A program made the position numbers and the translations under genes. Positions 38,508-60,212 of a stretch of 64,000 bases of DNA are shown here, piece by piece. The stretch is from assembly GCA_009829735.1 (NCBI GenBank), contig CM020620.1:27374951-27438950 (forward strand), given 5' to 3'. The stretch comes from Pyropia yezoensis (taxonomy: Eukaryota > Rhodophyta > Bangiophyceae > Bangiales > Bangiaceae). Each line of letters begins with the position of its first letter. Within the stretch, counting starts at the first letter, position 1. The notes under the pieces are model-generated. The model was not told the DNA's origin, did not search any database, and saw only the letters and a list, made by a program, of their open reading frames with translations.

Positions 38508-39014
38508 CCGTGGTGCCCGGCATCACCAGTCGCCTCCGCCGCGACGACGTACTGGACGTCACGATGGAGTCGCTCGCGTACCGTGGCGACGGCCTCGCGT
38601 GGGCGCCCGGCAGCACCGGCGAGGCGGCGCTCGCCATCTCGGTCAAGCACGCCATCCCGGGGGATACGGTGCGGGTGGCGCTTTAGAAGCTGCGGCGCAA
38701 GCCCAAAACCCACTCTAACAGCGTCTCCCGCGGCGCGCACGCCGAGGCGGTGCTGCTGTCGCAAACGGGTACAGCGGCGGCGGCGGTGACGCCGCGGTGC
38801 CCACATTTTGGCCTCAGCCGCACGGGGGGCGGCGGGTGCGGCGGGTGCCTCCACCAGCACCTCAGCTACGAACGGCAGCTCGCGGAAAAGGCTGGGCAGG
38901 TGGCGTCTCTGTTTCGGGATCTGGTGGCGGCGGGGGGGGGGGGGGGGACCTCCGTCCCATTGTGCCCGCGCCGGGCTTGTGAGGGTACCGCATCAAGATT
39001 GATTTATCGTTGGG
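38508..39014 (+). pseudogene. TrmA/RlmD-like m5U methyltransferase relic, N-terminal part
   Basis: DDVLDVTMESLAYRGDGLAW and HAIPGDTVRVAL form a TRAM domain. CPHFGLSRTGGGGCGGC and LHQHLSYERQLAEKAGQV match the Fe-S/Cys region of RlmD/TrmA-family RNA uridine-C5 methyltransferases. The frame is broken by a TAG at 38684-38686, by changes of frame, and by a TGA before GYRIKIDLSLG (equivalent to the family YR.K..FS.G). It is then split by element 2. Removing element 2 and one TTGGG copy restores KIDLSLG to TRIWRSD. Already a pseudogene by its stops. Confidence 0.7.
39010..39014 (+). repeat. Target-site duplication of element 2, left copy (TTGGG)
   Basis: TTGGG directly precedes TGTGGCAG and is repeated at 48392-48396. 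Confidence 0.95.
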
Positions 39015-39483
39015 TGTGGCAGTATTGACCCCCAGGTAGGGGGGCAACACGTGCCATGCAAGGGGCGGCAGGCCACTAGCCTGATCCGTTCCCCCCCCTG
39101 CATTTGGGTCCATATTCCCTAAGTTTGGGATAGTTAGCTTAGTAGTAAGTCCAACTTGGATTTGAGGGTTTTCTGCATTTATCGTCTTGAATTTTCGTGT
39201 GGCCCGGTGGGCAGGTGCTGGGGTGGGAGATTCTGAGTGGCGAGATTCTGAGGGGACCCTGGGGGGATAAGGGGAGGGACAGCGGGGCTTGGCCCTGCGT
39301 CCCCGTCCCGACCAAGAAACTGTTGGACCACACACCATCCTCTTGTTAGTCCGTGGGGGGTTTGCCCCACAACAGGGACAGAGTGTGTGCGACTTGCACT
39401 TCTTCCGGTTCCCCCGACACGGGAGGCAGCCCTTGCACACCGCCCCAACTTGGGTGCCGTGTGTGCATGTGGTTTTTGCCACA
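39015..39483 (+). repeat. 5' LTR of element 2
   Basis: It is 469 bp and starts TGTGGCAGTATTGACC, ending TTTTTGCCACA. It aligns in full with 47923-48391 and contains two AACTT-centred palindromes (39150-39160 and 39444-39454). Confidence 0.96.
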
Positions 39484-39485
39484 CT

Positions 39486-39502
39486 TGGTGGAGCAGCGGG
39501 GG
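39486..39502 (+). other. Primer-binding site of element 2
   Basis: TGGTGGAGCAGCGGGGG starts two bases after the 5' LTR. It begins TGG as required for tRNA CCA pairing and is shared in position and sequence with elements 1 and 3. Confidence 0.8.
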
Positions 39503-39602
39503 TCAGAGGTAAACTTTTCCTCCGGGTGCACCCGGGTGTAGGGGGCCCTCTGTCTCAGAGGAACGGTGGACTTGGACCGTGTCATACGGATCGTCAGCCA
39601 AC

Positions 39603-41549
39603 ATGGCTAGCTCGGACCCCCCGTCGTTCGGGGAGTACACGGGTGACGCACGTACTTCAGTGCCTTTGAATACTGGTGAGACACAGGTGGGTTTACCTGG
39701 GGTCGCAGAGGGACTAGAGGTCCCTCAAGCCACCAGGACTGGAAGTGCGGGCGGGCAACAGGCCACCCCGACTCAGTCGGGAGTTCACTCGGGTGACACT
39801 TCTGATGTGGGTGGGCCGAAGTCTGGCCACCGTGTGGTATACTCAACGGGAACGTCCCAAGGGGTGAGGACTGTCCCCGCGGGTTCCACTCGGGTTGGAG
39901 CCAACTTTGGCTTGGAGCCGTCGCCAACTAGGCTTTCGGAGGACGGCGGACCTCCGTTGGTCGGCGATGGGCTCGCGCCCATGCCCCCGGTTGAGACCCC
40001 TGAGGAACGTGGTTACCCCTCAGGTGGACTCCCGGAGGCGGACCGAGACTCAACTGGAGTCGTCAATCCACTCCTCGCGGAAACTGTCCGTCGGGAGGCG
40101 ACCAATGTGTTGCGGCAGACTTTGCCGGACCTGGTGGTCACGATGACGAATACAATTCTGAATCAGATTGTGGCGAGTTTGCCAGATGGCCTTAATGTCC
40201 AGACCAGATCGGGGCTTTCGAGCCCGCAGGCGCGGGGGGAATCCCTCCTCACGCCTACCTCTGGTCGCCCCGAACAGGGGGCGACACCTGTGACTCCCAA
40301 CGAGGGAGCCACACCATACTCGGTGGGGCGTACGCCCTTCATGGGGGAGTTCCCCCCGGAAACGCCGGCGGCTACACCAAGCGCGCCGCGCCGGACTGCA
40401 GGCACTGAGGGTGAACTTACCCCAGTGCCACAGCGGCTGTTCCCTCAACGTGAGGTGCCGCCCAAGATCCAGGTAGCCAACCCGGTTTACCAGAGGATCT
40501 TTGACTGTGAGACCTACGCCCTCCACAACAAGTCGGTGGTGTATGGTCCTGACCAGGCCCGAGCCATGGGCCGTGCCAAGAAGAATGCACTTCATTCTTT
40601 TGGGCACAAAGCGGAGTGGGATGGAACTCCCCCCCTTCGTGTCTTTGAGTTCCTACGTCGTTTCACAAAAGCCTGTGACGACAATGCCATAAGTGAAGGC
40701 ATGGCTTTCTACATGCTACAGGAGTTTACGAAGGGAGACCTGCGGACAGAACTTATGTCCGTCATGCCCAGCTCCTCAAGTGGAGGCGCTGGGGAGGTGA
40801 CTTCCTATTTGGAGCTCGTCAACTGGTTGTTGAGAGCCATGGTTGATGAAGCGGCGCTGGCTTCTCAAGTCGAGGAGTTTACGCAAGCCCATCAGGAAGA
40901 GGCGGAGGACGAGTTGTCCTTTGCGGAGCGAGTCCGTAAGCTCAACACTCTTTGTGGGTTTCTTCATCCACAAGCTGTGGTGAAGAGCCGGTTTGTGGAG
41001 GGATTCCATTGGTCAGTCCGGATGGAGACCCGGGAGCATAACACTGCCCGGGTGACCCTGGCCGAGCTGGCCAGGTTCGCCTATCGCAGAGGCGAGGCCT
41101 ACCGCAAGTTGCGGGAGGAACAACGCCAGGAGCGTCAGGCCGAGTTGGCCAAGGAACGGGAGGAGGCGCGCCAGGCCAGAGAGTTGAGAGAGGCACGCCG
41201 AATCCGCAAGGAGAGGGTGGTAGCTGCCGTGGGAACTTCCCAGGGTATCCCTTCGTCTTCCCAAGTTGGGAAGACCCCTCCGGGAACAGACCATCGGTGT
41301 TGGAACTGCAACTCCGATGGACACTGGGCATATGATTGCCCCAAGTTGATTAAACGCATCCAACAACTTGTTAGGAATGCGAGTAAGAAGTCGGCTACGA
41401 ACGAAGTACGTTCACGCCGCGAGGGTGGGTCTCGACCGGTCGTCGCGGTCGCCACACCCTCGGCGGAGGAGGCGGACACGTCGTCCTCGGACTCGTCGTC
41501 TTCCTCCCCGCCCTCAGATTCGGACGCCAAGTCGGCGGGAAACGAATGA
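39603..41549 (+). CDS. gag: Element 2 gag polyprotein
   Basis: The ATG at 39603 gives 648 residues. The first 300 are Pro/Thr/Gly/Ser-rich. A capsid-like core follows: FDCETYALHNK, VFEFLRRFTKACDDNAISEG, EVTSYLELVNWLLRAMVDE and LSFAERVRKLNTLCGFLH. Then comes a long charged helix (REEQRQERQAELAKEREEAR) and one zinc knuckle CWNCNSDGHWAYDCP. The C-terminus is acidic and Ser-rich. The stop TGA overlaps the pol start in ATGA (41546-41549). Gag forms the particle and binds element RNA. The copy is intact and its homologue in element 3 has the same length. Confidence 0.93.
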   Translation: MASSDPPSFGEYTGDARTSVPLNTGETQVGLPGVAEGLEVPQATRTGSAGGQQATPTQSGVHSGDTSDVGGPKSGHRVVYSTGTSQGVRTVPAGSTRVGANFGLEPSPTRLSEDGGPPLVGDGLAPMPPVETPEERGYPSGGLPEADRDSTGVVNPLLAETVRREATNVLRQTLPDLVVTMTNTILNQIVASLPDGLNVQTRSGLSSPQARGESLLTPTSGRPEQGATPVTPNEGATPYSVGRTPFMGEFPPETPAATPSAPRRTAGTEGELTPVPQRLFPQREVPPKIQVANPVYQRIFDCETYALHNKSVVYGPDQARAMGRAKKNALHSFGHKAEWDGTPPLRVFEFLRRFTKACDDNAISEGMAFYMLQEFTKGDLRTELMSVMPSSSSGGAGEVTSYLELVNWLLRAMVDEAALASQVEEFTQAHQEEAEDELSFAERVRKLNTLCGFLHPQAVVKSRFVEGFHWSVRMETREHNTARVTLAELARFAYRRGEAYRKLREEQRQERQAELAKEREEARQARELREARRIRKERVVAAVGTSQGIPSSSQVGKTPPGTDHRCWNCNSDGHWAYDCPKLIKRIQQLVRNASKKSATNEVRSRREGGSRPVVAVATPSAEEADTSSSDSSSSSPPSDSDAKSAGNE

Positions 41550-44500
41550 CCGTTGGGGCTGGTCGTCCGAAGCTCACAACGGCAGCCTCGGCCAAGTGGG
41601 TCAAGAGGATGAATCAACCGTGCCGGATACTGCGGCGACCTAAGGGAGTCCGCCCACCTCGGGTAGGACTCCCCAAGAACGTAAACCCACGTCGGGTCAT
41701 CGCGGTGCTGACGGGTGAGAACTTCCAGGTGGCTGGACGGGTGCAACTTGCCCCCGGCCGCGCCTGTTGTGCCCGTATCGTACTTGATACCGGGTCAGGA
41801 GCCTGCTTGATACGCAAGTCGCTATTACCAAAGGAGATGAAGCTCCAACGCTGGAAGTCTAAAGCTGACCATCTGATCGATATCAATGGTGGGGTACTTC
41901 CCATCGTTGGTGCCGTGACCCTACCAACTAGGTTGGGGACCCATGAGGTCGACGTGACCTATGGTGTAGTTGAGAATATATCGGTACCCCTGCTTCTGGG
42001 TACCCCTTATGTCGTAACACAAGTGCCTTTGATTTGTGGCCCTGAGTACTGGGTCAAGTTGATGAATGGGGAGACTATCCCCATCCTTGGTAAGGGAAAG
42101 TCTGTGGCTCCTGTGACAGTCTCACAGTCGAAGCCTGTTTGCTCTGTGAGGGAAAGGTTTACTGCTACCCTGCGTCTAGACCGTAAAGTCACGTTGCCCC
42201 CCAACTCGGTGGCGCACGTTGACGTTGTAACTGATGATACGGGGAACGGGTTGGTGCACCCTCACCCCCGTCTTGCTCGCAAGCACCAAGTGCAAGTTGC
42301 CCTTGGCACGATGGACTCCAAAGCCGGAGTCCCGTGGAGGATCCAGGTGATGAACCTGAGCTCGTCGCCCAAGTACTTCAAGTCGGGAGCCAAGTTCGGC
42401 TATATCGACCAACACGAGGGACCGGTAGTAGCGGTCACCCTCAACGCGGGCGCAAGTAGCGACCCGAAGTCCGGAAAGGAGAAGCATCAAGCCAAGTCGG
42501 CCGCCTCTCCTCGGCCCCATGTGAACATGGAGGGTGTCCCCCCCAGGTTGAGGGTTCAAGTTGAACGCCTCTTGGACCAATATCACAAGTTGTGGGATGG
42601 TCAATTGGGACTCATGAGAGCCACCCAACACCGGATCGAGTTGAAGCCCGGTGCACCCCCTATACGCCAACAACCGTATAGGGGAGGACCCCGTTCAAGG
42701 GCCCTCGTTAAGGAGCAAGTTGCTCACATGGAGGCCCTCGATGTGATCGAGGCCAGTAACGCCGAGTGGGCGAGTCCGGTGGTTATCGTCCCCAAAGTTG
42801 ATGGGACCCCCCGGTTTTGTATCGACTACCGTAAGCTCAACGAGAGCACGGTGAAGGACAGTTATCCCCTACCTAGGATGGACGACTGTCTGGACTCTCT
42901 GGGGGAGGCGAACGTGTTCTCTACCCTGGACTGTAACGCGGGGTACTGGCAAATTCCCATTGCCCTGGAGGACAGGCATAAAACTACCTTTACCTGTCAC
43001 TGTGGTACCTACCAGTGCAAGCGCGTACCGTTTGGTCTGTGTAACGCGCCGGCAACTTTCCAGCGCGCTATGGACATGATTCTGGCCGGAGTACGGTGGC
43101 AAATCTGTCTCGTGTACCTAGACGATATCATTGTGTTCTCCCGAAGTCCGGAGGAACACATTGGCCATCTTGTCCAGGTGTTCAAGCTACTTGCTGACGC
43201 CGGTGTGTCACTGAAGGCGAGTAAGTGCCACCTCTTCACTCAAGAGGTGGAATACTTGGGACATGTTGTCCGTCCGGGGCGTCTCAGTGTTAACGAGAAG
43301 AAATTGAGGGCCATTCGTAAGGCTCAGTACCACCGGACCCAGACCCAGATGAGGAGCTTCCTCGGAATGTGTAACGTGTACCAACGTTTCACCAAGGGCT
43401 TCGCCAAGGTGGCGAAGCCGTTGAATGAGCTAGTGAGCTCAACGCTACCGAAGAACCTGCCTCCCCCAAGTCGGGTGGAGCAGGAATCCTTTGAGACTCT
43501 TCGGGACCTTCTGCTGAAGCCCCCTATCCTGGCTATTCCCAGGTTGGGAGGCCACTACATCTTTGATGTGGACGCCAGCTACGACCAACTTGGTTGTGTG
43601 TTGCTTCAGCAGCAGCCGGACAAGGAGTACTTGCCGGTGGGATACTTCAGTAAGGGGCTGAACTCGGCCGAGAAGAACTACGGAGTCACCGAGTTGGAAG
43701 GACTCGCAGTGGTGTGGGCGGTGACGTCCCTTCGTCACTACCTAGCGGGTGAGAAGTTCCTCATCCGCTGTGACCACCGCGCGTTGCAGTTCATCTTTAA
43801 GACGGACTGTACGAACACTCGTCTCAACCGGTGGAGGGTGCGACTGGCACCCTTCAACTTTGACATTGAGTACCGACCTGGCAGGCAACATGCCCTTGCC
43901 GACGGCCTCTCTCGAGTACCTACCGAGGGGCTGGACACTAACCCAGTCGATGAGGACATCCCCATCGGGGGGGTAGTCACGCGCTCGGGTCAGGCGTTGA
44001 ACCCCGAGGCGCCAGGGAACAAGAAGTACTTGCCCCTGTCCCTGGACGAGGTGGTGAAGGCCCAGGCCGAGGATCCCTTCTGCAAGTCGCAGAGGGATAC
44101 ACTGGATACAGTGGCGGAGACGCGGATCTTTCTGGGAGACGATGGCCTCCTCATGAGGAGGGGGGTATTCCAAGGGGCTGAACAACTTGTCGTCCCCGCA
44201 TCCCTCAAGGACAGTATCCTTGAGAGGGAGCACAACGCTCCCACGGGTGGACACCTGGGGTCTAGTAAACTGTACCAGACCCTGAGGACCAGATACTACT
44301 GGTCGTCCATGGTGGTGGACATCTACAGTTGGGTGGCTGCCTGCACAAGTTGTGCACAGAACCGTCTGATGGAACGGCGGCCTACTACGGCTATGCTATT
44401 GTTCCCGGCCAAGGAGCCCTTTGCCGCGTTGGCGATGGACATCCTTGGGCCACTGCCAGTGACCGAGGAGGGCAACCAGTACCTCCTGGTCATCTGTGAC

Positions 44501-45529
44501 CGCTTCACGAAACTTACGCGAGCGATCCCACTGGCAGAGATCACGGCCATGTCGGTCGTGTCAGCCTTCCTAGATCACTGGGTTGCCGCGTATGGCATTC
44601 CGGATAGTACACTATCGGACAATGGACCGCAAGTTGCGTCTGTACTGTTTCAGGGAGTGCTGGATATGTTGGGGGTTAAGGCAAACTATGCCACCCCCTA
44701 CCACCCACATACTAACGGGCAGGTGGAGCGCTTCAACAAAACTATTGTTCGGCAGCTGCGCCACTATGTGAGTGAGCATGTGAAAACGTGGGACCAATAC
44801 ATTTCTATTCTTACCACTGCCTACAATTCGCAGGTTCACTCATCTACCGGGGAAGTACCCCTCGCTTTTGTGACCCCCCGTCGTGTGCGGTCTATTGCCG
44901 TGCGGCGGTCGCTCCCAACTAGGGAGGATGGTGGCAGTACGCCTACTCCTACTGAGAGTAAGGCGGATTTCGCTGCTAGGCTTGAAAACCTCATCCCTAA
45001 AGTCAGGGCTGAGATGGACAAAGCACAAAAGCGCTACAAGCGTACCTTTGACAAAAAGGTGCGCAATGCTAAGCACGTCCCCGAGCAGGGTGACTGGGTG
45101 CTGGTACACTCGCACACCCCAACTGGGGGTAAGTTGGTATTCCAGACGAAGGGGCCGTACCAGGTCCTTCGTACTGATGGGCGGCGCTTCACGATCGAAA
45201 GTGACGATGGGGTCCGCACAGTGAACGGACAGGACGTGGTCAAAGTTGCACCACCGCCTGCAGGCGACCCAGCTTGGGCGCGTGCTTTGGAAGCGTGGCG
45301 CCTCCCCTCACTGCCTGCGGCCAAACAGGGCCCGCAGGAGTGCGTGTTTGATAAGTTCATCGATTACGGATGGGATGAAGACACTGACCGCCTCATGTTG
45401 AGGGTGCGTTGGTTTGGCTACAAAGCCAAGGACGATACGTGGGAGTACGTGGAGGACCTTCCCGCTGAGAAGGTCCGGGCGTACTGTGCCCGGAATGAGA
45501 TAGACCCTAACAGCCCTCCCTCAACGTGA
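41546..45529 (+). CDS. pol: Element 2 pol polyprotein, complete
   Basis: The product is 1,327 residues in order: retropepsin with IVLDTGSGACLI (Asp81), RT at about 395-600 with FCIDYRKLN, VPFGLCNAPATFQRAMD and LVYLDDIIVFS (YLDD 524-527), RNase H at about 670-790 (Asp674/676, Glu718, Asp743, Asp786 region), integrase zinc region EREHNAPTGGHLGSSKLYQT with CTSCAQN, catalytic core with MDILGPLP, LSDNGPQVAS and HTNGQVERFNK, and a chromodomain-like C-terminus (MLRVRWFGYKAKDDTWEYVE). The ATG overlaps the gag stop by four bases in the -1 frame, so pol would be made by reinitiation or by frameshift near the stop. No stop or frameshift is seen, so this copy could be autonomous. Confidence 0.95.
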   Translation: MTVGAGRPKLTTAASAKWVKRMNQPCRILRRPKGVRPPRVGLPKNVNPRRVIAVLTGENFQVAGRVQLAPGRACCARIVLDTGSGACLIRKSLLPKEMKLQRWKSKADHLIDINGGVLPIVGAVTLPTRLGTHEVDVTYGVVENISVPLLLGTPYVVTQVPLICGPEYWVKLMNGETIPILGKGKSVAPVTVSQSKPVCSVRERFTATLRLDRKVTLPPNSVAHVDVVTDDTGNGLVHPHPRLARKHQVQVALGTMDSKAGVPWRIQVMNLSSSPKYFKSGAKFGYIDQHEGPVVAVTLNAGASSDPKSGKEKHQAKSAASPRPHVNMEGVPPRLRVQVERLLDQYHKLWDGQLGLMRATQHRIELKPGAPPIRQQPYRGGPRSRALVKEQVAHMEALDVIEASNAEWASPVVIVPKVDGTPRFCIDYRKLNESTVKDSYPLPRMDDCLDSLGEANVFSTLDCNAGYWQIPIALEDRHKTTFTCHCGTYQCKRVPFGLCNAPATFQRAMDMILAGVRWQICLVYLDDIIVFSRSPEEHIGHLVQVFKLLADAGVSLKASKCHLFTQEVEYLGHVVRPGRLSVNEKKLRAIRKAQYHRTQTQMRSFLGMCNVYQRFTKGFAKVAKPLNELVSSTLPKNLPPPSRVEQESFETLRDLLLKPPILAIPRLGGHYIFDVDASYDQLGCVLLQQQPDKEYLPVGYFSKGLNSAEKNYGVTELEGLAVVWAVTSLRHYLAGEKFLIRCDHRALQFIFKTDCTNTRLNRWRVRLAPFNFDIEYRPGRQHALADGLSRVPTEGLDTNPVDEDIPIGGVVTRSGQALNPEAPGNKKYLPLSLDEVVKAQAEDPFCKSQRDTLDTVAETRIFLGDDGLLMRRGVFQGAEQLVVPASLKDSILEREHNAPTGGHLGSSKLYQTLRTRYYWSSMVVDIYSWVAACTSCAQNRLMERRPTTAMLLFPAKEPFAALAMDILGPLPVTEEGNQYLLVICDRFTKLTRAIPLAEITAMSVVSAFLDHWVAAYGIPDSTLSDNGPQVASVLFQGVLDMLGVKANYATPYHPHTNGQVERFNKTIVRQLRHYVSEHVKTWDQYISILTTAYNSQVHSSTGEVPLAFVTPRRVRSIAVRRSLPTREDGGSTPTPTESKADFAARLENLIPKVRAEMDKAQKRYKRTFDKKVRNAKHVPEQGDWVLVHSHTPTGGKLVFQTKGPYQVLRTDGRRFTIESDDGVRTVNGQDVVKVAPPPAGDPAWARALEAWRLPSLPAAKQGPQECVFDKFIDYGWDEDTDRLMLRVRWFGYKAKDDTWEYVEDLPAEKVRAYCARNEIDPNSPPST

Positions 45530-45640
45530 GGGAAGGCCGAACAACAGTGCCAAGAGTGTGCTTCAAGTCGAAGTGGTACGCAGAGTGGCTTTTAACTACA
45601 GCCCTAACCCTCACACTCTCACAACAAAGGCAGCTGCCAA

Positions 45641-46666
45641 CTAGGCACGCATGCTAGACTCTCCCACTCCACGGCCCTCGCCCTCACGTGGAGGCGAGCG
45701 GCGAGACCCACGGCGATAACGGTCTCCACTCGTTGGAAGGAGCGGCGGCTCCAAGTCGGAACCGTCACGCCCTTGACGGTCGCGCAAGTGGCGCCGACCG
45801 TGGCTACTCTTCTGCCTGGTCTTGCGCGCAAGTTTGCGACGCAGACGCTGGACAGACTCCGTCTCCGACGGGGTAGAGGACTCCGAGACGGAGTAAGACA
45901 ACTCTTCTTCCGACACGGAGGGAGAGCGCCGCGAGTGTCGGCGGCGACGGCGAGGAGGCGAGTATGCCCGGCTCGCGCGACGTTTGCCACGCCCAAGTGG
46001 GGCTGGCTGGGGCATAATAGCCCCAATGCGAGCCAACTCGGCCGTCATAAACTCCGCCACCGACTCGCAACTCGCGGTCGCCACTGCAGTACGAACGCGC
46101 TCCTCAAGTTGAGGAGTCTCGGAACTTTGAAGGGTTGCGGTCGACGCGGCCAACCAGGAAATGGTGCGCACCAACGTGGTGATCATCATCTCTGAGGTTA
46201 GAGGCGTGGGCGGTAACACCAACTTGGGGTATACCGTCAGGAGGGTGGCCCCCAAGTTGGGGGACACCGGGGTGGATGACTCCACGGCCACGCTAATCGG
46301 GATGTTCCCGTGAGCCTGGAAAGGAACAGGAGAAAGCGGAGGGGCACGCCGAGGTGGCGGTACCCGGGTGTAACTGCGACCCCGACTTGGGGCCCCCGCA
46401 GTGGGTTGAGTCATATGGTCATCATATGAGGGCACAGCCATAACTATGGGCTTGTCCGGGGGTGGCGCAGTGTGGCGATCCACCCCCGGGGCATACGGGT
46501 AGTCCCCGATGCCCAACCCCTCTCGTAGGACCACACGGCCGTCGTGAAGTTCACGAGCGACCCACACGAACTGGCGAAGTGCGCCATCGTCCTTGGGCCC
46601 ACGAGTGGGGCGGCGCAACTTGTGCTCAATGCTCTCCCACTCGATAAACTTGTGGAGGCGGACCAT
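45641..46666 (-). CDS. Element 2 antisense ORF 2 (aORF2-C)
   Basis: The ATG at 46666 opens 341 residues on the strand opposite gag-pol. The pol stop and this stop are 112 bp apart, tail to tail. N-terminal part: MVRLHKFIEWESIEHKLRR, FVWVARELHDGRVVLREGLG and DYPYAPGVDRH. Middle: EMMITTLVRTISWLAAST and a helical ASCESVAEFMTAELARIGAI. C-terminal part: strongly Arg/Ser-rich (YSPPRRRRRHSRRSPSVS, then SETESVQRLRRKLARKTRQK), suggesting nucleic-acid binding or nuclear localisation. It is in the same frame as aORF1 and follows its TAA by 18 nt, and those 18 nt have homology inside aORF1 of element 1. Family unknown. Confidence 0.75.
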   Translation of the reverse strand: MVRLHKFIEWESIEHKLRRPTRGPKDDGALRQFVWVARELHDGRVVLREGLGIGDYPYAPGVDRHTAPPPDKPIVMAVPSYDDHMTQPTAGAPSRGRSYTRVPPPRRAPPLSPVPFQAHGNIPISVAVESSTPVSPNLGATLLTVYPKLVLPPTPLTSEMMITTLVRTISWLAASTATLQSSETPQLEERVRTAVATASCESVAEFMTAELARIGAIMPQPAPLGRGKRRASRAYSPPRRRRRHSRRSPSVSEEELSYSVSESSTPSETESVQRLRRKLARKTRQKSSHGRRHLRDRQGRDGSDLEPPLLPTSGDRYRRGSRRSPPREGEGRGVGESSMRA

Positions 46667-46684
46667 CTCCTCAAGTAGAGTGAG

Positions 46685-47584
46685 TTATCCTGATGAGCAC
46701 CCCTCAGCAACTAGCTGAGGGGTGAGCTGTTCCAAACCTTGGATAAGCCGGAGGGGGAGATGCCAGAGCATCCCCCGCCGCTGAACACAAGACACCCAGG
46801 TCGACATGACCTCGAGGAGCCACTGGGTGACCAACATGGCCCACACCAGGTGATCAGGGCCAGCTGTCAACATGACGGCGCCGAAGTGGTCAAGCAACCG
46901 TGGCAGCAACGCCGGGAACCCGTAGGGGACCTCAACTTGAGGCCACCACTCGGGCTTCTTCGGATAGTACTGCTCCTTGCTGGCAGCAGACTGTTGAGGA
47001 AACTCAAGTTGAGCCGAGGTCACCAAGTAGGGACCTCGCCGGAAGTCTTTCTCCATCCGCACATCAAAGTGATGAGTGTGCGGATCGGCCTCGTGAAGGT
47101 ACGGGGGGCGAGTTGCCACCGCGTCCCAAGTAAAGGTCGGCAAGTCGCCGGGACCTGGGATAGTTCCCCCGCGGTACACCATGGCCTTAGCACGCTGAAC
47201 GTCCTCAACCTCCTCATCGTCCAGGAAGGCAAACTGGTCCGTCCTGAAGCCGGCAGGGAACCCGACCTTACGGGAATACTTCTGCCGTAGGCGGTCCCAT
47301 ACCCGACCCATCGCTGCGCCAAGTCGGCCACAGCGAAGAACAGTCAACCCCTCCTCATATAGAGGCCAAGCGGGGTAAAACCACCGCCCCAAGGCCTCAC
47401 GCGGGACAACTTGTCCCGCCTCCGGGGGAGACCCCGCCGTCAACCCAAAGCCGGGTGACGCGGGAGTCCCATCCCCAGGAGCGATCGCGGAGCCCCCGCC
47501 GGAAGTCCCGGCGGGCGCTGCACCGTAGGTGGTGTCCTCCATAGGCTCATCTAGAGAGTCCGTCTCCACTCCCGGGGTCGCCAT
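46685..47584 (-). CDS. Element 2 antisense ORF 1 (aORF1-C)
   Basis: The ATG at 47584 opens 299 residues (MATPGVETDSLDEPMEDTTY) ending in TAA. After a Gly/Pro/Ser-rich N-terminus come GRWFYPAWPLYEEGLTVLRC, KVGFPAGFRTDQFAFLDDEE, HHFDVRMEKDFRRGPYLVTS, EWWPQVEVPYGFPALLPRL and a Leu/Trp-rich end (QWLLEVMSTWVSCVQRRGM). It has no transmembrane span, zinc motif or catalytic pattern I recognise. The copy in element 3 is nearly identical. Element 1 has a diverged homologue at the same place and strand. It would be transcribed from the 3' LTR side. Confidence 0.78.
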   Translation of the reverse strand: MATPGVETDSLDEPMEDTTYGAAPAGTSGGGSAIAPGDGTPASPGFGLTAGSPPEAGQVVPREALGRWFYPAWPLYEEGLTVLRCGRLGAAMGRVWDRLRQKYSRKVGFPAGFRTDQFAFLDDEEVEDVQRAKAMVYRGGTIPGPGDLPTFTWDAVATRPPYLHEADPHTHHFDVRMEKDFRRGPYLVTSAQLEFPQQSAASKEQYYPKKPEWWPQVEVPYGFPALLPRLLDHFGAVMLTAGPDHLVWAMLVTQWLLEVMSTWVSCVQRRGMLWHLPLRLIQGLEQLTPQLVAEGCSSG

Positions 47585-47910
47585 GGCTCTCCCCAAGTTG
47601 GGGAGAGACGCTCTGGCTATCGCGGCACGAGACCCGCCTCGAGTTGAGGGGGACTCGGATCGTGGGTATACGGGTGGCCTCCCCAGCGTGGGGCGGCCCA
47701 GTGGAAGGTGAAGGGGAGGTGGTGGTGATGGTGAAGTGTGAACTGAGGAGAGCAAGCTGCCGAGTGGGCAAGCTTGAGGAGAGGGGCGGTCAACGTGACC
47801 GCCTCCACATCCGTGTTACGTACTCGATGGGGGACAGCAAGTCGCGCCCCCAACGCCGAGACGTGCGTTTACGCACCCCCTCACAGGGCCGACCGGGTCG
47901 GTCGGAACTG

Positions 47911-47922
47911 AGGAGAGGGGAG
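47911..47922 (+). other. Polypurine tract of element 2
   Basis: AGGAGAGGGGAG lies immediately before the 3' LTR, the position for plus-strand priming. The reverse complement is found next to the 3' LTR of element 3. Confidence 0.75.
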
Positions 47923-48391
47923 TGTGGCAGTATTGACCCCCAGGTAGGGGGGCAACACGTGCCATGCAAGGGGCGGCAGGCCACTAGACTGATCCGTTCC
48001 TCCCCCTGCATTTGGGTCCATATTCCCTAAGTTTGGGGTAGTTAGCTTAGCAGTAAATCCAACTTGGATTTGAGGGTTTTCTGCATTTATCGTCTTGAAT
48101 TTTCGTGTGGCCCGGTGGGCAGGTGCTGGGGTGGGAGATTCTGAGTGGCGAGATTCTGAGGGGACCCTGGGGGGATAAGGGGAGGGACAGCGGGGCTTGG
48201 CCCTGCGTCCCCGTCCCGACCAAGAAACTGTTGGACCACACACCATCCTCTTGTTAGTCAGTGGGGGGTTTGCCCCACAACAGGGACAGAGTGTGTGCGA
48301 CTTGCACTTCTTCCGGTTCCCCCGACACGGGAGGCAGCCCTTGCACACCGCCCCAACTTGGGTGCCGTGTGTGCATGTGGTTTTTGCCACA
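47923..48391 (+). repeat. 3' LTR of element 2
   Basis: It is 469 bp, near-identical to 39015-39483, and followed by TTGGG. Confidence 0.96.
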
Positions 48392-48396
48392 TTGGG
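48392..48396 (+). repeat. Target-site duplication of element 2, right copy (TTGGG)
   Basis: TTGGG directly follows TGCCACA and matches 39010-39014. Confidence 0.95.
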
Positions 48397-49240: not shown

Positions 49241-50281
49241 GCAAGTGAGGGGGCATCCCGGCGTTGGCGCGCGCGTGGCTCGCTGCAGAGAGCGTGAAGG
49301 AAGGGCCGCGATGAATGGCCGCGAGAAGAGCGGGTGGTGGGAGCGTCAGTCAGCCGTCGACTGGCACACTTTCTGCTGCAGCGCTGGCACAGGCGAGACT
49401 TGTGGCCGGATGACGGGTGGACCTGGCGGGCTGCGGAGGCGTACGCGGCCAGCACGAAAATGACGAGGCAGCAGACAGCGCAGCTGACCGGCGTTCGTTG
49501 TGGCGTGAACGGTCCTTACAGTCCAAACAGGATGCAAACCGGTCTGTCGTCCCTCCCCATCCCCACCAGCACTCCTTGTGCCTGCGCCTGCGCTTTTCGT
49601 GTTGCCGGCCGTCGCTCGATGCTCCGCGCGCCGCGGCGGCGTCACCGTACCGCTCCTTCCCCCGCCGACCTTCCCCCCCCCCCCCCCCCAAGGCGCGCAA
49701 AGCTGTACTCCCCCACCCGGCGTTGCCCGCCTCCTCCCCGCGGCAGAACTCCTCCTCTACGTGGCCACCCTGGCGGCCACCGTCGGCAACACCTTGTGGA
49801 CGGCGGCGGTGGCGCCCCGCCCCCCCCCTTCTGCAGCGGCCACCAGGGGGGACGGCGCCGCCGCCACCGCCGCGGCCGCCGCTCCCCCGCCGCCGCTTGC
49901 CGGCCCCATTGCCGACGCGCTTGCGGCGGATGGGGTGTGGGGCCACGCGCCGCCCCGCTGGGCCACCCTCCTCCACATCAACGACGTGCACATGGACATT
50001 GGCGGCGGCGCGGGAGCAGGGAGGCGCGGCGGCGACGGTGGCGGCACCGCCGCCACCGATGGCGGCGCCATACCATCTGCACCGCCCTCCAGTCGATTGC
50101 GGGGGGGGTGGGGGCGTCCATTGCGCTTGCGGCGGTGGTGGTGAGTGAGGACCTCTTCGCGGGCGTTGCCAGCGAGGCCAAGTGGGCCACCTACGCGGCG
50201 GTCGTAGCGTTTGCGTGGGGGGTGCCGCCGACGCCACTGCCACCACCGTCATCGTCATCGTCATCGTCGTCAGCGGCCGCA

Positions 50282-50301
50282 GGGGGGGGGGGGGGGGGGG
50301 G
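50282..50301. repeat. Poly-G run of 20 bases
   Basis: An uninterrupted run of G inside the metallophosphoesterase relic, preceded by a TCA/TCG-type Ser repeat (50250-50270). Confidence 0.9.
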
Positions 50302-50600
50302 TGGGGGGGCGCCACGACCGCGGCGGCGGCCGCCACCACTGCTGCCGCGGCAGAGGCGGGGGACGGCGGTGCCCCCCCGGCGGATGGTGTGGGTGGACAC
50401 GCGGGGCAACCACGACGCGTATGGGGATGGCGGCGTCCACCGCGCGGGTGGGCGGGGGCGCGGCGGCCACTACCGCCGGTACGGCCTCAGCAGCCGCGCA
50501 GCTGGCGACCGCCTGGCCGTCAGCGACGTCGGCCGTGACGGCGACGGCAGGGATGGGGGCGGCCGCGAAGGCGACAGCGGCTGCGGCGACAGCGGCGGTC

Positions 50601-50603
<3 letters not shown>

Positions 50604-50632
<29 letters not shown>
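50604..50632. repeat. Poly-C run of 29 bases
   Basis: The longest homopolymer in the window, inside the metallophosphoesterase relic. Frame assignments across it are unsafe. Confidence 0.95.
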
Positions 50633-51305
50633 GCCGGCCTACCCCTGTCCACCACCCGCCGGCGGCGGTCCCTCTCCTCCCTGGCCACTGCCTGTGGGGG
50701 CGGCGCCCCCCCCCCTGGCGCTGGCGCTCGTTGGTTACCTTCACACCGCCGGCATGGCCGCCCCCGCCGGGGTAATAGTGGCCCCGCCCGCGGTGGTGGC
50801 CGCTGTCGCCATCACTACAGACCTTGCCGCCTGCTGCGGCGGCTGTTCGGTATCGAGAACGGGGTGATGACCATCGGTGGTGACGACCGCGCTGGTGCTC
50901 GTCACCAACCCCAGGGGGGGCTCTTCGACGCCGCCATCCACGTGGACCTCCTCCACCTGCCCGAAGCGGGGCGGCCCGCCTTGCTGGGCGTCCTCGTGCC
51001 CCTTCTCGACGCCGGAGCCTTCCGGACGGTGGGGGGGGGACGTGCGCCAGTGGTTCGATGGCGGGCCCTACTGTGCAGCGGCGTGGGCGTGAGCGACCCG
51101 CCCGTAAGCGGCGGCGGCGGCGGCTGACGGCGGCGGCGGCGGTGGCGGTGTAACGGCGGCCGCAGCGGCGGGTGCAGGTGCGGCGGTGGGGGGCGGCGGC
51201 GCCCCCCCCGCGTGGGCCCCCTACCACGACGGCGCCCTCTTCCCCCCCCCCCCGGCACGCCCTTCCACATGCACGGCACCTTCCCGACGGCGCTGGATGT
51301 GGGCG

Positions 51306-51310: not shown

Positions 51311-51773
51311 TGTGGCAAAAACCACTTACACACACGACACCCAAGTTGGGGCAGTGTACAAGGGCTGCCTCCCGTGTCGGGGGAACCGGAAGAAGTGCAA
51401 GTCGCACACACTCTGTCCCTGTTGTGGGGCGAACCCCCCACTGACTAACAAGAGGATGGTGTGTGGTCCAACAGTTTCTTGGTCGGGACGGGGACGCAGG
51501 GCCAAGCCCCGCTGTCCCTCCCCTTATCCCCCCAAAGTCCCCTCAGAATCTCGCCACTCAGAATCTCCCACCCCAGCACCTGCCCACCGGGCCACATGAA
51601 AGGCGATAAATGCAGAAAACCCTCAAATCGAAGTTGGATTTACTACTAAGCTAAGTATCCCAAACTTAGGGAATATGGACCCAAATGCAGGGGGAGGAAC
51701 GGATCAGGCTAGTGGCCTGCCGCCCCTTGCATGGCACGTGTTGCACCCCTACCTGGGGGTCAATACTGCCACA
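51311..51773 (-). repeat. 3' LTR of element 3
   Basis: It is 463 bp and begins TGTGGCAAAAACCAC on + (reverse complement of the element 2 LTR end). Next to it, 51774-51785 is the reverse complement of a polypurine tract, which sets the orientation. Confidence 0.95.
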
Positions 51774-52111
51774 CTCCCCTCTCCTCAGTTCCGACCGACC
51801 CGGTCGGCCCTGTGAGGGGGTGCGTAAACGCACGTCTCGGCGTTGGGGGCGCGACTTGCTGTCCCCCATCGAGTACGTAACACGGATGTGGAGGCGGTCA
51901 CGTTGACCGCCCCTCTCCTCAAGCTTGCCCACTCGGCAGCTTGCTCTCCTCAGTTCACACTTCACCATCACCACCACCTCCCCTTCACCTTCCACTGGGC
52001 CGCCCCACGCTGGGGAGGCCACCCGTATACCCACGATCCGAGTCCCCCTCAACTCGAGGCGGGTCTCGTGCCGCGATAGCCAGAGCGTCTCTCCCCAACT
52101 TGGGGAGAGCC

Positions 52112-53011
52112 ATGGCGACCCCGGGAGTGGAGACGGACTCTCTAGATGAGCCTATGGAGGACACCACCTACGGTGCAGCGCCCGCCGGGACTTCCGGCGG
52201 GGGCTCCGCGATCGCTCCTGGGGATGGGACTCCCGCGTCACCCGGCTTTGGGTTGACGGCGGGGTCTCCCCCGGAGGCGGGACAAGTTGTCCCGCGTGAG
52301 GCCTTGGGGCGGTGGTTTTACCCCGCTTGGCCTCTATATGAGGAGGGGTTGACTGTTCTTCGCTGTGGCCGACTTGGCGCAGCGATGGGTCGGGTATGGG
52401 ACCGCCTACGGCAGAAGTATTCCCGTAAGGTCGGGTTCCCTGCCGGCTTCAGGACGGACCAGTTTGCCTTCCTGGACGATGAGGAGGTTGAGGACGTTCA
52501 GCGTGCTAAGGCCATGGTGTACCGCGGGGGAACTATCCCAGGTCCCGGCGACTTGCCGAACTTTACTTGGGACGCGGTGGCAACTCGCCCCCCGTACCTT
52601 CACGAGGCCGATCCGCACACTCATCACTTTGATGTGCGGATGGAGAAAGACTTCCGGCGAGGTCCCTACTTGGTGACCTCGGCTCAACTTGAGTTTCCTC
52701 AACAGTCTGCTGCCAGCAAGGCGCAGTACTATCCGAAGAAGCCCGAGTGGTGGCCTCAAGTTGAGGTCCCCTACGGGTTCCCGGCGTTGCTGCCACGGTT
52801 GCTTGACCACTTCGGCGCCGTCATGTTGACAGCTGGCCCTGATCACCTTGTGTGGGCCATGTTGGCCACCCAGTGGCTCCTCGAGGTCATGTCGACCTGG
52901 GTGTCTTGTGTTCAGCGGCGGGGGATGCTCTGGCATCTCCCCCTCCGGCTTATCCAAGGTTTGGAACAGCTCACCCCTCAGCTAGTTGCTGAGGGGTGCT
53001 CATCAGGATAA
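52112..53011 (+). CDS. Element 3 antisense ORF 1 (aORF1-C copy)
   Basis: It has 299 residues, the same length as 47584-46685 in element 2, with a handful of substitutions (for example PNFTW for PTFTW, and SKAQYYP for SKEQYYP). The ATG is at 52112 and the TAA at 53009-53011. Both copies stay open with few changes, while pol in this element has already decayed. Confidence 0.78.
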   Translation: MATPGVETDSLDEPMEDTTYGAAPAGTSGGGSAIAPGDGTPASPGFGLTAGSPPEAGQVVPREALGRWFYPAWPLYEEGLTVLRCGRLGAAMGRVWDRLRQKYSRKVGFPAGFRTDQFAFLDDEEVEDVQRAKAMVYRGGTIPGPGDLPNFTWDAVATRPPYLHEADPHTHHFDVRMEKDFRRGPYLVTSAQLEFPQQSAASKAQYYPKKPEWWPQVEVPYGFPALLPRLLDHFGAVMLTAGPDHLVWAMLATQWLLEVMSTWVSCVQRRGMLWHLPLRLIQGLEQLTPQLVAEGCSSG

Positions 53012-53029
53012 CTCACTCTACTTGAGGAG

Positions 53030-54055
53030 ATGGTCCGCCTCCACAAGTTTATCGAGTGGGAGAGCATTGAGCACAAGTTGCGCCGCCCCACTCGTGGGCC
53101 CAAGGACGATGGCGCACTTCGCCAGTTCGTGTGGGTCGCTCGTGAACTTCACGACGGCCGTGTGGTCCTACGAGAGGGGTTGGGCATCGGGGACTACCCG
53201 TATGCCCCGGGGGTGGATCGCCACACTGCGCCACCCCCGGACAAGCCCATAGTTATGGCTGTGCCCTCATATGATGACCATATGACTCAACCCACTGCGG
53301 GGGCCCCAAGTCGGGGTCGCAGTTACACCCGGGTACCGCCACCTCGGCGTGCCCCTCCGCTTCCTCCTGTCCCCTACCAGCCGCACGGGGACATCCCGGT
53401 TAGCGTGGCCGCTGAGTCGTACACCCCCGTGGCCTCCAACTTGGGGGCCACCCTCCTGACGGTATACCCCAAGTTGGTGTTACCGCCCACGCCTCTAACC
53501 TCAGAGATGATGATCACCACGTTGGTGCGCACCATTTCCTGGTTGGCCGCGTCGACCGCAACCCTTCAAAGTTCCGAGACTCCTCAACTTGAGGAGCGCG
53601 TTCGTACTGCAGTGGCGACCGCGAGTTGCGAGTCGGTGGCGGAGTTTATGACGGCCGAGTTGGCTCGCATTGGGGCTATTATGCCCCAGCCAGCCCCACT
53701 TGGGCGTGGCAAACGTCGCGCGAGCCCGGCATACTCGCCTCCTCGCCATCGCCACCGACACTCGCGGCGCTCTCCCTCCGTGTCGGAAGACGAGTTGTCT
53801 TACTCCGTCTCGGAGTCCTCGACTCCGTCTGAGTCGGAATCGGTCCGGCGTCTGCGTCGCCAACTTGCGCGCAAGACCAGGCAGAAGAGTAGCCACGGTC
53901 GGCGCCACTTGCGCGACCGTCAAGGGCGCGACGGCTCCGACTTGGAGCCGCCGCCCCTTCCAACGAGTGGAGACCGTTATCGCCGTGGGTCTCGCCGCTT
54001 GCCTCCTCGTGAGGGCGAGGGCCGTGGGGTTGGAGAGTCTAGCACGCATGCCTAG
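53030..54055 (+). CDS. Element 3 antisense ORF 2 (aORF2-C copy)
   Basis: It has 341 residues, ATG 53030, and the same length as the element 2 copy, with more changes in the middle (PPVPYQPHGDIPVSVAAES) and in the Arg/Ser-rich end. It is in frame with aORF1, 18 nt after its TAA. The spacer encodes LTLLEE in frame, matching LLLLEE within aORF1 of element 1. Confidence 0.75.
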   Translation: MVRLHKFIEWESIEHKLRRPTRGPKDDGALRQFVWVARELHDGRVVLREGLGIGDYPYAPGVDRHTAPPPDKPIVMAVPSYDDHMTQPTAGAPSRGRSYTRVPPPRRAPPLPPVPYQPHGDIPVSVAAESYTPVASNLGATLLTVYPKLVLPPTPLTSEMMITTLVRTISWLAASTATLQSSETPQLEERVRTAVATASCESVAEFMTAELARIGAIMPQPAPLGRGKRRASPAYSPPRHRHRHSRRSPSVSEDELSYSVSESSTPSESESVRRLRRQLARKTRQKSSHGRRHLRDRQGRDGSDLEPPPLPTSGDRYRRGSRRLPPREGEGRGVGESSTHA

Positions 54056-54166
54056 TTGGCAGCTGCCTTTGTTGTGAGAGTGTGAGGGTTAGGGCTGTAG
54101 TTAAAAGCCACTCTGCGTACCACTTCGACTTGAAGCACACTCTTGGCACTGTTGTTCGGCCTTCCC

Positions 54167-57100
54167 TCACGTTGAGGGAGGGCTGTTAGGGTCTATCTCA
54201 TTCCGGGCACAGTTTGCCCGGACCTTCTCAGCGGGAAGGTCCTCCACATACTCCCACGTATCATCCTTGGCTTTGTAGCCAAACCAACGCACCCTCAACA
54301 TGAGGCGGTCAGTGTCCTCATCCCAGCCGTGGTCGATAAACTGATCGAACACGTACTCCTGCGGGCCCTGTTTGGCCGCACGCAGTGAGGGGAGGCGCCA
54401 CGCTTCCAAAGCACGCGCCCAAGCTGGGTCGCCTGCAGGCGGTGGTGCAACTTTGACCACGTCCTGTCCGTTCACTGTGCGGACCCCATCGTCACTTTCG
54501 ATCGTGAAGCGCCGCCCATCAGTACGAAGGACCTGGTACGGCCCCTTCGTCTGGAATACCAACTTACCCCCAGTTGGGGTGTGCGAGTGTACCAGCACCC
54601 AGCCACCCTGCTCGGAGACATGCTTAGCATTGCGCACCTTTTTGTCAAAGGTACGCTTGTAGCGCTTTTGTGCTTTGTCCACCTCAGCCCTGACTTTAGG
54701 GATGAGGTTTTCAAGCCTAGCAGCGAAATCCGCCTTACTCTCAGTAGGAGTAGGCGTACTGCCACCATCCTCCCTAGTTGGGAGCGACCGCCGCACGGCA
54801 ATAGACCGCACACGACGGGGGGTCACAAAAGCGAGGGGTACTTCCCCGGTAGATGAGTGAACCTGCGAATTGTAGGCAGTGGTAAGAATAGAAATGTATT
54901 GGTCCCACGTTTTCACATGCTCACTCACATAGTGGCGCAGCTGCCGAACAATAGTTTTGTTGAAGCGCTCCACCTGCCCGTTAGTATGTGGGTGGTAGGG
55001 GGTGGCATAGTTTGCCTTAACCCCCAACATATCCAGCACTCCCTGAAACAGTACAGACGCAACTTGCGGTCCATTGTCCGATAGTGTACTATCCGGAATG
55101 CCATACGCGGCAACCCAGTGATCTAGGAAGGCTGACACGACCGACATGGCCGTGATCTCTGCCAGTGGGATCGCTCGCGTAAGTTTCGTGAAGCGGTCAC
55201 AGATGACCAGGAGGTACTAGTTGCCCTCCTCGGTCACTGGCAGTGGCCCAAGGATGTCCATCGCCAACGCGGCAAAGGGCTCCTTGGCCGGGAACAATAG
55301 CATAGCCGTAGTAGGCCGCCGTTCCATCAGACGATTCTGTGCACAACTTGTGCAGGCAGCCACCCAACTGTAGATGTCCACCACCATGGACGACCAGTAG
55401 TATCTGGTCCTCAGGGTCTGGTACAGTTTACTAGACCCCAGGTGTCCACCCGTGGGAGCGTTATGCTCCCTCTCAAGGATACTTTCCTTGAGGGATGCGG
55501 GGACGACAAGTTGTTCGGTCCCCTGGAGTACCCCCCTCCTCACGAGGAGGCCATCGTCTCCCAGAAAGAACCGCGTCTCCGCCACTGAATCCAGTGTATC
55601 CCTCTGCGACTTGCAGAAGGGATCCTCGGCCTGGGCCTTCACCACCTCGTCCAGGGACAGGGGCAAGTACTTCTTGTTCCCTGGCGCCTCGGGGTTCAAC
55701 GCCTGACCCGAGCGCGTGACTACCCCCCCGATGGGGATGTCCTCATCGACTGGGTTAGTGTCCAGCCCCTCGGTAGGTACTCGAGAGAGGCCGTCGGCAA
55801 GGGCATGTTGCCTGCCAGGTCGGTACTCAATGTCAAAGTTGAAGGGTGCCAGTCGCACCCTCCACCGGTTGAGACGAGTGTTCGTACAGTCCGTCTTAAA
55901 GATGAACTGCAACGCGCGGTGGTCACAGCGGATGAGGAACTTCTCACCCGCTAGGTAGTGACGAAGGGACGTCACCGCCCACACCACTGCGAGTCCTTCC
56001 AACTCGGTGACTCTGTAGTTCTTCTCGGCCTAGTTCAGCCCCTTGCTGAAGTATCCCACCGGCAAGTACTCCTTGTCCGGCTGCTGCTGAAGCAATACAC
56101 AACCAAGTTGGTCGTAGATAGCGTCCACATCCAGGATGTAGTGGCCTCCCAACCTGGGAATAGCCAGGATAGGGGGCTTCAGCAGAAGGTCCCGAAGAGT
56201 CTCAAAGGATTCCTGCTCCACCCGTCTTGGGGGAGGCAGGTTCTTCGGTAGCGTTGAGCTCACTAACTCATTCAACGGCTTCGCCACCTTGGCGAAGCCC
56301 TTGGTGAAACGTCGGTAAACGTTACACATTCCGAGGAAGCTCCTCATCTGGGTCTGGGTCCGGGGGTACTGAGCCTTACGGATGGCCCTCAAGTTCTTCT
56401 CGTTGACACTGAGACGCCCCGGACGGACAACATGTCCCAAGTATTCCACCTCTTGAGTGAAGAGGTGGCACTTACTCGCCTTCAGTGACACACCGGCGTC
56501 AGCAAGTAGCTTGAACACCTGGACAAGATGGCCAATGTGTTCCTCCGGACTTCGGGAGAACACAATGATATCGTCTAGGTACACGAGACAGATTTGCCAC
56601 CGTACTCCGGCCAGAATCATGTCCATAGCGCGCTGGAAAGTTGCCGGCGCGTTACACAGACCAAACGGTACGCGCTTGCACTGGTAGGTACCACAGTGAC
56701 AGGTAAAGGTAGTTTTATGCCTGTCCTCCAGGGCAATGGGAATTTGCCAGTACCCCGCGTTACAGTCCAGGGTAGAGAACACGTTCGCCTCCCCCAGAGA
56801 GTCCAGACAGTCGTCCATCCTAGGTAGGGGATAACTGTCCTTCACCGTGCTCTCGTTGAGCTTACGGTAGTCGATACAGAACCGGGGGGTCCCATCAACT
56901 TTGGGGACGATAACCACCGGACTCGCCCACTCGGCGTTACTGGCCTCGATCACATCGAGGGCCTCCATGTGAGCAACTTGCTCCTTAACGAGGGCCCTTG
57001 AACGGGGTCCTCCCCTATACGGTTGTTGGCGTATAGGGGGTGCACCGGGCTTCAACTCGATCCGGTGTTGGGTAGCTCTCATGAGTCCCAATTGACCATC

Positions 57101-60093: not shown

Positions 60094-60193
60094 GTTGGCT
60101 GACGATCCGTATGACACGGTCCAAGTCCACCGTTCCTCTGAGACCGAGGGCCCCCTACACCCGGGTGCACCGGGAGGTAAAGTTTACCTCTGT

Positions 60194-60210: not shown

Positions 60211-60212
60211 AA

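Follow-up and report, generated by a model that had tools for sequence, protein, structure and literature searches.

The window analysed here is a 64,000-nucleotide stretch of the genome of Pyropia yezoensis, an edible red seaweed (assembly GCA_009829735.1, contig CM020620.1, positions 27,374,951 to 27,438,950 of the forward strand; all coordinates below are those of the window). On its forward strand, between 39015 and 48391, lies a Ty3/gypsy long terminal repeat (LTR) retrotransposon, family C copy 1, in which dozens of short mirror-image sites share the same tiny core, differ in their arms, and are accommodated within coding sequence through synonymous codons. The element is recognised by its 5′ and 3′ LTRs (39015-39483 and 47923-48391), a 5-bp target duplication (TTGGG at 39010-39014 and 48392-48396), a gag open reading frame (ORF; 39579-41549) with a CCHC zinc knuckle, and a pol ORF (41546-45529) with reverse transcriptase (RT), RNase H and integrase in that order. 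Two antisense ORFs lie on the reverse strand, aORF2 (46685-47755) and aORF1 (45641-46666). Strong hairpins number 12 in gag (6.1 per kb), 24 in pol (6.0 per kb), seven in aORF2 (6.5 per kb) and three in aORF1 (2.9 per kb). A second copy of the element (51311-60675, reverse strand) is inverted, about 98% identical to the first, and carries a nearly identical set of palindromes.

Comparisons between copies use an alignment of eight full or partial family C copies, together with one to three copies or part copies of each of the other families, all from one genome. The subfamily copies L020-L023 have common ancestry, and counts across them are not independent of one another.

Palindromes in the family C element

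A preliminary description of this sequence listed 11 perfect palindromes with arms of at least 6 nucleotides around an AAGTT or AACTT core (together AASTT, where S is C or G). All 11 are real and perfect. Those with an AAGTT core are at 41102-41114 (with C-G as its outer pair, against T-A in subfamily copies L021 and L023), 41255-41275 (21 bp), 42554-42566, 42713-42725, 44342-44356, 46249-46263, 46542-46556 and 47587-47607 (21 bp), and those with an AACTT core are at 41230-41242, 46930-46942 and 47401-47419 (19 bp). Two others had been overlooked, both of 17 bp—one at 46100-46116 (AAGTT, centre 46108) and one in the 3′ LTR at 48055-48071 (AACTT, centre 48063)—and the true AASTT total in 39015-48391 is 13. 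Two 11-bp palindromes in the 5′ LTR (39150-39160 and 39444-39454, both centred on AACTT) are likewise present and perfect, and the inverted repeat at 47495-47515 (AAGTC core, 8-bp arms) has precisely one mismatched pair, as had been claimed. The observation is thus confirmed, and is larger than first described.

The centring on AAGTT/AACTT is genuine, but AASTT is the commonest form of a broader rule: the repeats are centred on A[C/G]T (AST), with a loop of about 5 nucleotides and arms that are often imperfect. NASTN loops predominate in copy 1, AASTT being their perfect version. Copy 1 has 24 AAGTT and 23 AACTT cores, around which complementary pairing stands at 35-71% at distances 3 to 9 and at 8-39%, mostly about 25%, from distance 10. 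Each trinucleotide class was then scored for how often it forms the centre of an odd inverted repeat with at least 5 of 7 pairs at distances 3-9 (the core test). In copy 1, ACT/AGT does so at 63 of 333 occurrences, compared with 220 of 9353 (2.35%) for all centres and 9 of 252 for the next class, and the corresponding figure in subfamily copy L021 is 49 of 304.

A scan of every spacer for 8-bp arms with at least 7 pairs, in which the core is ignored, gives 38, 32, 34 and 29 repeats in copy 1 at spacers 1, 3, 5 and 7, where 4-5 are expected at each, and 3, 5 and 6 at spacers 0, 2 and 4 (about 4 expected). Spacer 6 is represented by 15 repeats (4 expected), and spacers 8-16 are raised too (9-20, with 4-5 expected). 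From these counts the family C set is mainly odd-centred, with some 6-nt and larger loops in addition. At loops of 5 or 6 nucleotides, the 9.4 kb of copy 1 contain 49 centres with at least 7 of 8 pairs, and shuffled sequences about 8 (4.1 + 4.0). The register is tight: the dyad falls on the central base of ACT at 23 of 333 occurrences, on the two half-base shifts at 5 and 2, and on the other 16 shifts at 4 together. Among the 63 ACT-centred repeats, C is favoured at position -3 (38) and A at -2 (33), mirrored on the opposite side, and from -4 outward the bases track composition; the core is therefore specific and the arms nearly free.

Other inverted repeats lie at 46699-46723 (AACTA core, perfect 10-bp arms), 43228-43250 (CACTC core, 9-bp arms, paired at the homologous place in family G too), 44204-44224 (CAGTA core, 8-bp arms), 44258-44282 (AACTG core, AACTT in the subfamily copies; 10-bp arms, one mismatch) and 43397-43419 (AAGGT core, located in the part of pol that separates RT from RNase H). 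Two have 6-nt loops and one mismatch each, GAACTG at 41293-41318 and GTACCA at 43369-43392.

Controls for codon usage and background

The preliminary description held that the sites cross coding and noncoding DNA and do not follow from codon choice, and proposed codon-matched shuffling as a test. The sites do span both kinds of DNA, and in gag and pol the excess disappears in shuffles that preserve protein and codon usage, which fail to reproduce the AASTT palindrome density. In 1000 such shuffles per ORF, perfect AASTT palindromes average 0.05, 0.12, 0.07 and 0.07 in gag, pol, aORF1 and aORF2, and three are seen in each. Repeats of spacer 5 number 15 in pol (mean 2.5, maximum 9) and 8 in gag (mean 1.2, maximum 5), levels that none of the 1000 shuffles reach; aORF2 has 5 (mean 1.0), reached by 2 of 1000. 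For aORF1 there are 4 repeats of spacer 1, with a mean of 0.7, and 7 of 1000 shuffles reach this number. Inverted repeats in coding sequence exceed the codon-controlled expectation clearly in gag, pol and aORF2 and weakly in aORF1. AST-centred hairpins, scored against 300 synonymous shuffles, number 29 in pol (3.2 expected) and 13 in gag (1.5 expected) and occur in all three codon positions, and the AST trinucleotide itself is somewhat enriched (145 vs 117 in pol, 67 vs 58 in gag).

The background consists of 10-kb genome samples, not of annotated host genes as such. AASTT palindromes with arms of at least 5 are absent from 8 of 11 hand-placed samples (L012-L019), and the three that contain them (L009, L010 and L011) include copies of family C or of its subfamily of about 86% identity, L009 being mostly N. 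Genome-wide, in 107.5 Mb with three large contigs of 43.59, 34.33 and 29.39 Mb, CAAGTTG is found 35,340 times when both strands are counted, and its reversed control 9,726 times; the figures for CAACTTGG and its control are 13,953 and 3,518. Copy 1 holds 26 CAASTTG sites, and the genome-wide excess would correspond, as a rough estimate and not a count, to the content of about a thousand family C copies, provided that it belongs entirely to this family. Three loci near one another at the start of C1, L001, L002 and L008, are 99% identical over 3 kb; each contains a single AASTT core, none has an AASTT palindrome with arms of at least 5, and they represent a different repeat.

Related families

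Comparable arrays are seen in two other families. In family G (L027 and L030) the core is again ACT/AGT, which is the centre of a repeat at 36 of 235 occurrences in the core test (next class 9 of 167) and is the most enriched loop trinucleotide, at 37 of 68 loops (3.6-fold); for family C, the pol and aORF stretches give 21 of 47 loops (4.3-fold). The pol of family G has 8, 10, 9 and 8 repeats at spacers 5, 7, 9 and 11, where 1.6-1.7 are expected, and is raised from spacer 5 upward.

Family A is represented in the window by a Ty3/gypsy element at 18064-27776 (reverse strand; target duplication CTCGG), which has palindromes of its own with a TA-containing core and a 3-nt loop, among them a repeat with 8-bp arms and a 3-nt loop at 20959-20977 and a 17-bp odd palindrome at 23352-23368. 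By the core test ACT/AGT is a centre at just 3 of 175 occurrences, and TAA/TTA leads (14 of 114), followed by ATA/TAT (13 of 186) and GTA/TAC (12 of 201). Repeats of spacers 1 and 3 number 27 and 26 (about 5 expected), and the pol region has 14 hairpins (5.2 expected).

No comparable core is found by the same test in family B (4 of 213), families D and E (2 of 183), family F (4 of 79) or window positions 1-18k (6 of 214). The slight ACT excess in family F (L028) was treated as noise and may be the trace of a weak array. In B, D, E and F, pol is near expectation with no spacer above 5, and ACT/AGT is absent from the loops of B, D and F; the pol of family D has 7 hairpins where 3.4 are expected, none with ACT. 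Counts in the 3′ flank of family D (L032), and less so in that of F (L031), are raised at odd and even spacers alike, which we take to reflect GC-rich repeats. The flank of the D copy also has a long antisense ORF that reads by eye as the pol of another gypsy element, perhaps neighbouring or nested. Family B looks old and decayed. Identity to the family C pol protein is 58% for G, 47-55% for A, 39-43% for B and 30-37% for D and F, so that the arrays, present in C, G and A, distinguish a single clade within the set of families seen.

The antisense protein and other features

aORF2 and aORF1 share a frame and correspond to the N-terminal and C-terminal parts of one protein, which is continuous in a 95%-identical relative (P0003) and split by a stop in the window copy. 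The protein has an Arg/Ser-rich stretch near its end, in aORF1, no Pfam match, and a single PDB match (E = 0.75) that was treated as noise. An antisense ORF of family A (19079-20353, forward strand) is 27.6% identical to aORF2 over 105 amino acids (E = 9e-8), and no aORF2 homologue was found in family B, which has no palindromes. Judged by sequence similarity, homology of the antisense proteins is demonstrable between C and A alone.

A chromodomain after the integrase would make the element a Ty3/gypsy chromovirus; its pol ORF has a Pfam Chromo match of 16.9 bits (E = 0.0059), short of the 25.1-bit cut-off. Pyropia vietnamensis has an annotated Gag relative. Searches for relatives of pol gave two pattern matches in viral contigs, neither confirmed, and none in phage records. 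The interval separating the two family C copies contains, at 50274-50636, an imperfect inverted repeat that is rich in GC, with long G and C tracts and arms of about 73 nt that are 74% complementary.

Proposed explanation

The arrays exist, are not accounted for by codon usage or base composition, have a single core in each family, show strand symmetry in C and G, and are partly retained in subfamilies. The reading we tentatively prefer, while giving it somewhat less than an even chance, is that they are scattered sites by which each family recognises itself, maintained by selection acting on the nucleic acid and bound by a putative reader. Each family of one Ty3/gypsy clade would carry a dispersed array of short dyad-symmetric sites, each with complementary arms of nearly any sequence around a short core that lies at the dyad and is particular to the family (ACT/AGT in C and G, TA-containing in A). 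Selection on the nucleic acid would keep the sites in place, largely by way of synonymous codons, and a putative lineage-specific factor would read them as DNA on either strand, as a duplex dyad or an extruded hairpin, allowing the element to recognise its own DNA. Candidate readers are the antisense-encoded protein and Gag, and candidate ends are assembly, chromatin and silencing.

The preliminary description had already suggested self-recognition, by analogy with the VANC proteins of VANDAL elements. The general idea gains from the specificity of the arrays to these elements among the sequences examined, their presence in coding and noncoding DNA, their persistence under codon control, their partial retention in subfamilies of about 85% identity, and the difference in core between families; the VANC analogy fares less well and is taken up below.

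Selection or mutation

Fourfold degenerate sites in stems change less than others in all nine subfamily comparisons (odds ratio 0.34-0.77, codon-stratified) and in all three comparisons between recent copies (odds ratio 0.33-0.82). Regions paired in both copies differ by 6.5-8.3% and the remainder by 14-20% in comparisons with four subfamily copies, a contrast that arises partly by construction.

The main rival is mutational. In template-switch (quasi-palindrome) conversion the strand being made in replication or reverse transcription folds back at favoured sites and uses one arm as the template for the other, and the palindromes would then be made and kept by mutation, not by function, with a pause or loop preference belonging to each family's reverse transcriptase. 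Such a process predicts strand symmetry, equal numbers of G-T and A-C mismatches, joint evolution of the arms, and absence from other families and from the genomic samples. Hairpins are reported to arise and persist through template switching (PMC8794818), and the process has been proposed for coding palindromes in nematomorph mitochondria (PMC6649704). The behaviour of the centre may also be read in this way. Columns in which at least four copies keep the flanking A and T of AST were compared: of the 68 such columns inside hairpins, 51 are invariant, 9 have G-C swaps, 3 transitions and 5 other changes, and of the 263 outside, 200 are invariant, 5 have swaps, 38 transitions and 20 other changes (swap vs transition, inside vs outside, p = 5e-5). 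Third-position C/G columns, for comparison, show 62 swaps and 507 transitions in 1610. A swap at the centre equals an inversion of the AGT loop, a possible product of template switching (PMC8794818).

Several observations fit this rival poorly. Some swaps alter the centre alone and leave asymmetric flanks unchanged, and we know of no basis in template switching for strict centring on ACT/AGT. Hairpins are spread evenly through gag and pol, and the LTR does not exceed them in density. In places where copy 1 alone has a hairpin, the share of adjacent changes is 0.37, 0.50, 0.35 and 0.41 for the four subfamily copies, against 0.47, 0.39, 0.29 and 0.33 elsewhere; given the higher divergence in such regions, we see no clear excess of adjacent changes where a hairpin was gained or lost. 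Conversion should perfect the arms, whereas imperfect arms are in clear excess: repeats with 7 of 8 pairs whose mismatch is neither G-T nor A-C number 25 in copy 1 at loops 5 and 6, with 6.0 expected. In the nematomorph study the absence of imperfect repeats was taken to indicate active conversion and not a tug-of-war between coding and structure (PMC6649704), and by that argument the family C case leans to selection. With evidence on both sides, we therefore keep selection for self-recognition as the tentative preference and regard template switching as somewhat unlikely.

Recognition as DNA or as RNA

Dispersed RNA packaging signals have variable stems, and the family C array likewise consists of many dispersed hairpins with a common short loop motif and variable stems. 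An alternative is that the sites act as stem-loops of the sense RNA, as dispersed packaging or assembly signals in genomic RNA that Gag, which carries a zinc knuckle, reads by the loop motif, a mechanism that has been proposed for several RNA viruses. Folding of the sense strand agrees to some extent, mean z-scores being lower in C (-0.89), G (-1.20) and A (-0.56) than in B (-0.17), F (-0.39), D (-0.33) and E (+0.09); the sense and antisense strands, however, fold equally well. The loop motif occurs equally in both orientations, with ACT only and AGT only at 15:21 among 87 hairpins in C and 20:19 among 73 in G. A wobble test on repeats with exactly one mismatch gives no excess of G-T over A-C: 8:8 in family C copy 1, 4:10, 3:5 and 5:9 in L021, L022 and L011, 7:9 in G and 4:8 in A. 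One-sided changes of stem pairs between copy 1 and four subfamily copies comprise 50 G-T and 74 A-C, and for L011 they are 10 and 5. A loose set of 160 sites, many of them due to chance, has 89 G-T, 73 A-C and 251 other conserved mismatches, the one count that runs the opposite way; sense-RNA structure as the sole level of action was set aside, being unsupported by wobble, orientation and folding.

In family C the centre is a G:C pair in either orientation and seldom A or U, which is unusual for a single-stranded loop and fits recognition of a duplex or of both strands. Equal orientation, the lack of a clear G-U preference and the behaviour of the centre in family C, where G and C swap but A or T seldom appears, point to strand-symmetric recognition at the level of DNA over a sense-RNA hairpin, and we consider sense-RNA stem-loops improbable.

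Two further ideas were dropped. Early lists suggested a one-strand bias of 6-nt loops; counts pooled over all loops show none in C or G, the 6-nt loops not having been tested separately. An integration-target role, in which the 5-nt loop would match the 5-bp target duplication, disagrees with the TTGGG, not AASTT, at family C copy 1, and family A has a 5-bp duplication but a 3-nt loop.

Origin of the palindromes by chance, base composition or codon usage has next to no probability, no point in its favour outlasting the controls: the GC-rich window positions 1-38k do have inverted repeats raised at all spacers 0-20, but those of positions 1-18k are without an ACT core, and dinucleotide and synonymous-codon shuffles and the negative families of the same genome all stand against it.

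Evidence weighing against self-recognition

A number of results count against selection for self-recognition as set out above. Constraint on synonymous sites is of modest size (z -0.8 to -2.7), and some copies enter more than one comparison. Arm co-variation, which the preliminary description had proposed looking for, is at most suggestive: there are 51 doubly changed pairs over four copies where 22.4 would be expected if the changes were independent, and 24 of the 51 are complementary, which by our own estimate hardly exceeds what transition bias alone could give. An early impression that compensatory changes were decisive evidence was given up on this count. Four of the nine G-C swaps are at second codon positions, where ACT/AGT exchanges Thr and Ser, and conservative replacement may contribute to them. 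Within copy 1, the spacer-5 repeats of aORF1 are not in excess (2 vs 0.8; 200 of 1000 shuffles reach this number).

The other families add further points. The signal in family A is weaker than that in C, and its antisense region is near expectation (7 hairpins vs 5.4). Family A may also not be strand-symmetric, as its sense-strand centre is A or T at 50:27 in a loose set and 18:11 in a stricter one. In family G the register is looser (11, 4 and 6 of 233, with 10 at the other 16 shifts), and no homologue of the antisense protein could be shown although palindromes are present. When 17 C sites were inspected at their homologous positions in G, 7 of 8 pairs were seen for 43146 and 43239 and 6 for 43756; with so few sites paired at homologous places, the arrays turn over while their density stays.

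We nevertheless entertain, more guardedly than the general reading, a specific version of it: that this clade writes a strand-symmetric structural address over its full length, coding sequence as well, perhaps read as DNA by a co-evolving element-encoded protein that separates its own DNA from that of the host and of sister families. If the arrays are read, they would constitute a recognition code made of complementarity and a tiny core in place of a fixed sequence and superimposed on coding DNA by the use of synonymous codons, and would offer a direct way to ask how a transposon family recognises itself. If they are mutational in origin, they would reveal a process linked to reverse transcription that turns an element, from end to end, into hairpins centred on a favoured trinucleotide. 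Both possibilities can be tested, since this one genome contains close relatives among the families that differ in their core or lack one.

Comparison with known systems

No description of such arrays was found in open-licence literature, covered mostly at the level of titles, on Pyropia palindromes, on retrotransposon hairpins and template switching, or on antisense genes of red-algal gypsy elements. Four known systems offer partial parallels.

The VANC proteins of VANDAL elements, to which the preliminary description pointed, resemble the present case in that a transposable element is densely populated with short motifs particular to its family (PMC5735166). The motif of VANC21 is, however, a fixed sequence of nine bases in one orientation, mainly in noncoding tandem repeats, and the available part of that report describes no pairing of arms (PMC5735166). 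A VANC-like system is not borne out here: the arms are nearly free, both orientations are equal in C and G, and gag and pol are dense with sites.

The dispersed RNA packaging signals of RNA viruses and hepatitis B virus are similar in comprising many stem-loops throughout a genome with a common loop motif (PMC7612645, PMC6281560, PMC5431903). The Pyropia arrays differ from them in that families C and G use both orientations equally, with no clear G-U tolerance and with the motif at the dyad.

Template-switch hairpins (PMC8794818) and the quasi-palindromes of yeast (PMC3820800) share with the arrays the turning of arms into complementary sequence and the inversion of loops. The former are known from DNA replication of ribosomal RNA genes, with 4-nt loops enriched (PMC8794818), and the latter from transcription-associated synthesis (PMC3820800). 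As far as the accessible portions of these two reports extend, neither describes a fixed core trinucleotide or a restriction to a transposon clade.

The mitochondrial palindromes of Nematomorpha are alike in being numerous inverted repeats in coding sequence that are absorbed by codon degeneracy and gained and lost between relatives (PMC6649704). The repeats there reach 284 bp, long ones are nearly always perfect, and no core motif is named in the part of the report available (PMC6649704), whereas those of the Pyropia arrays mostly measure 13-25 bp, are frequently imperfect and have at their centre a trinucleotide specific to each family.

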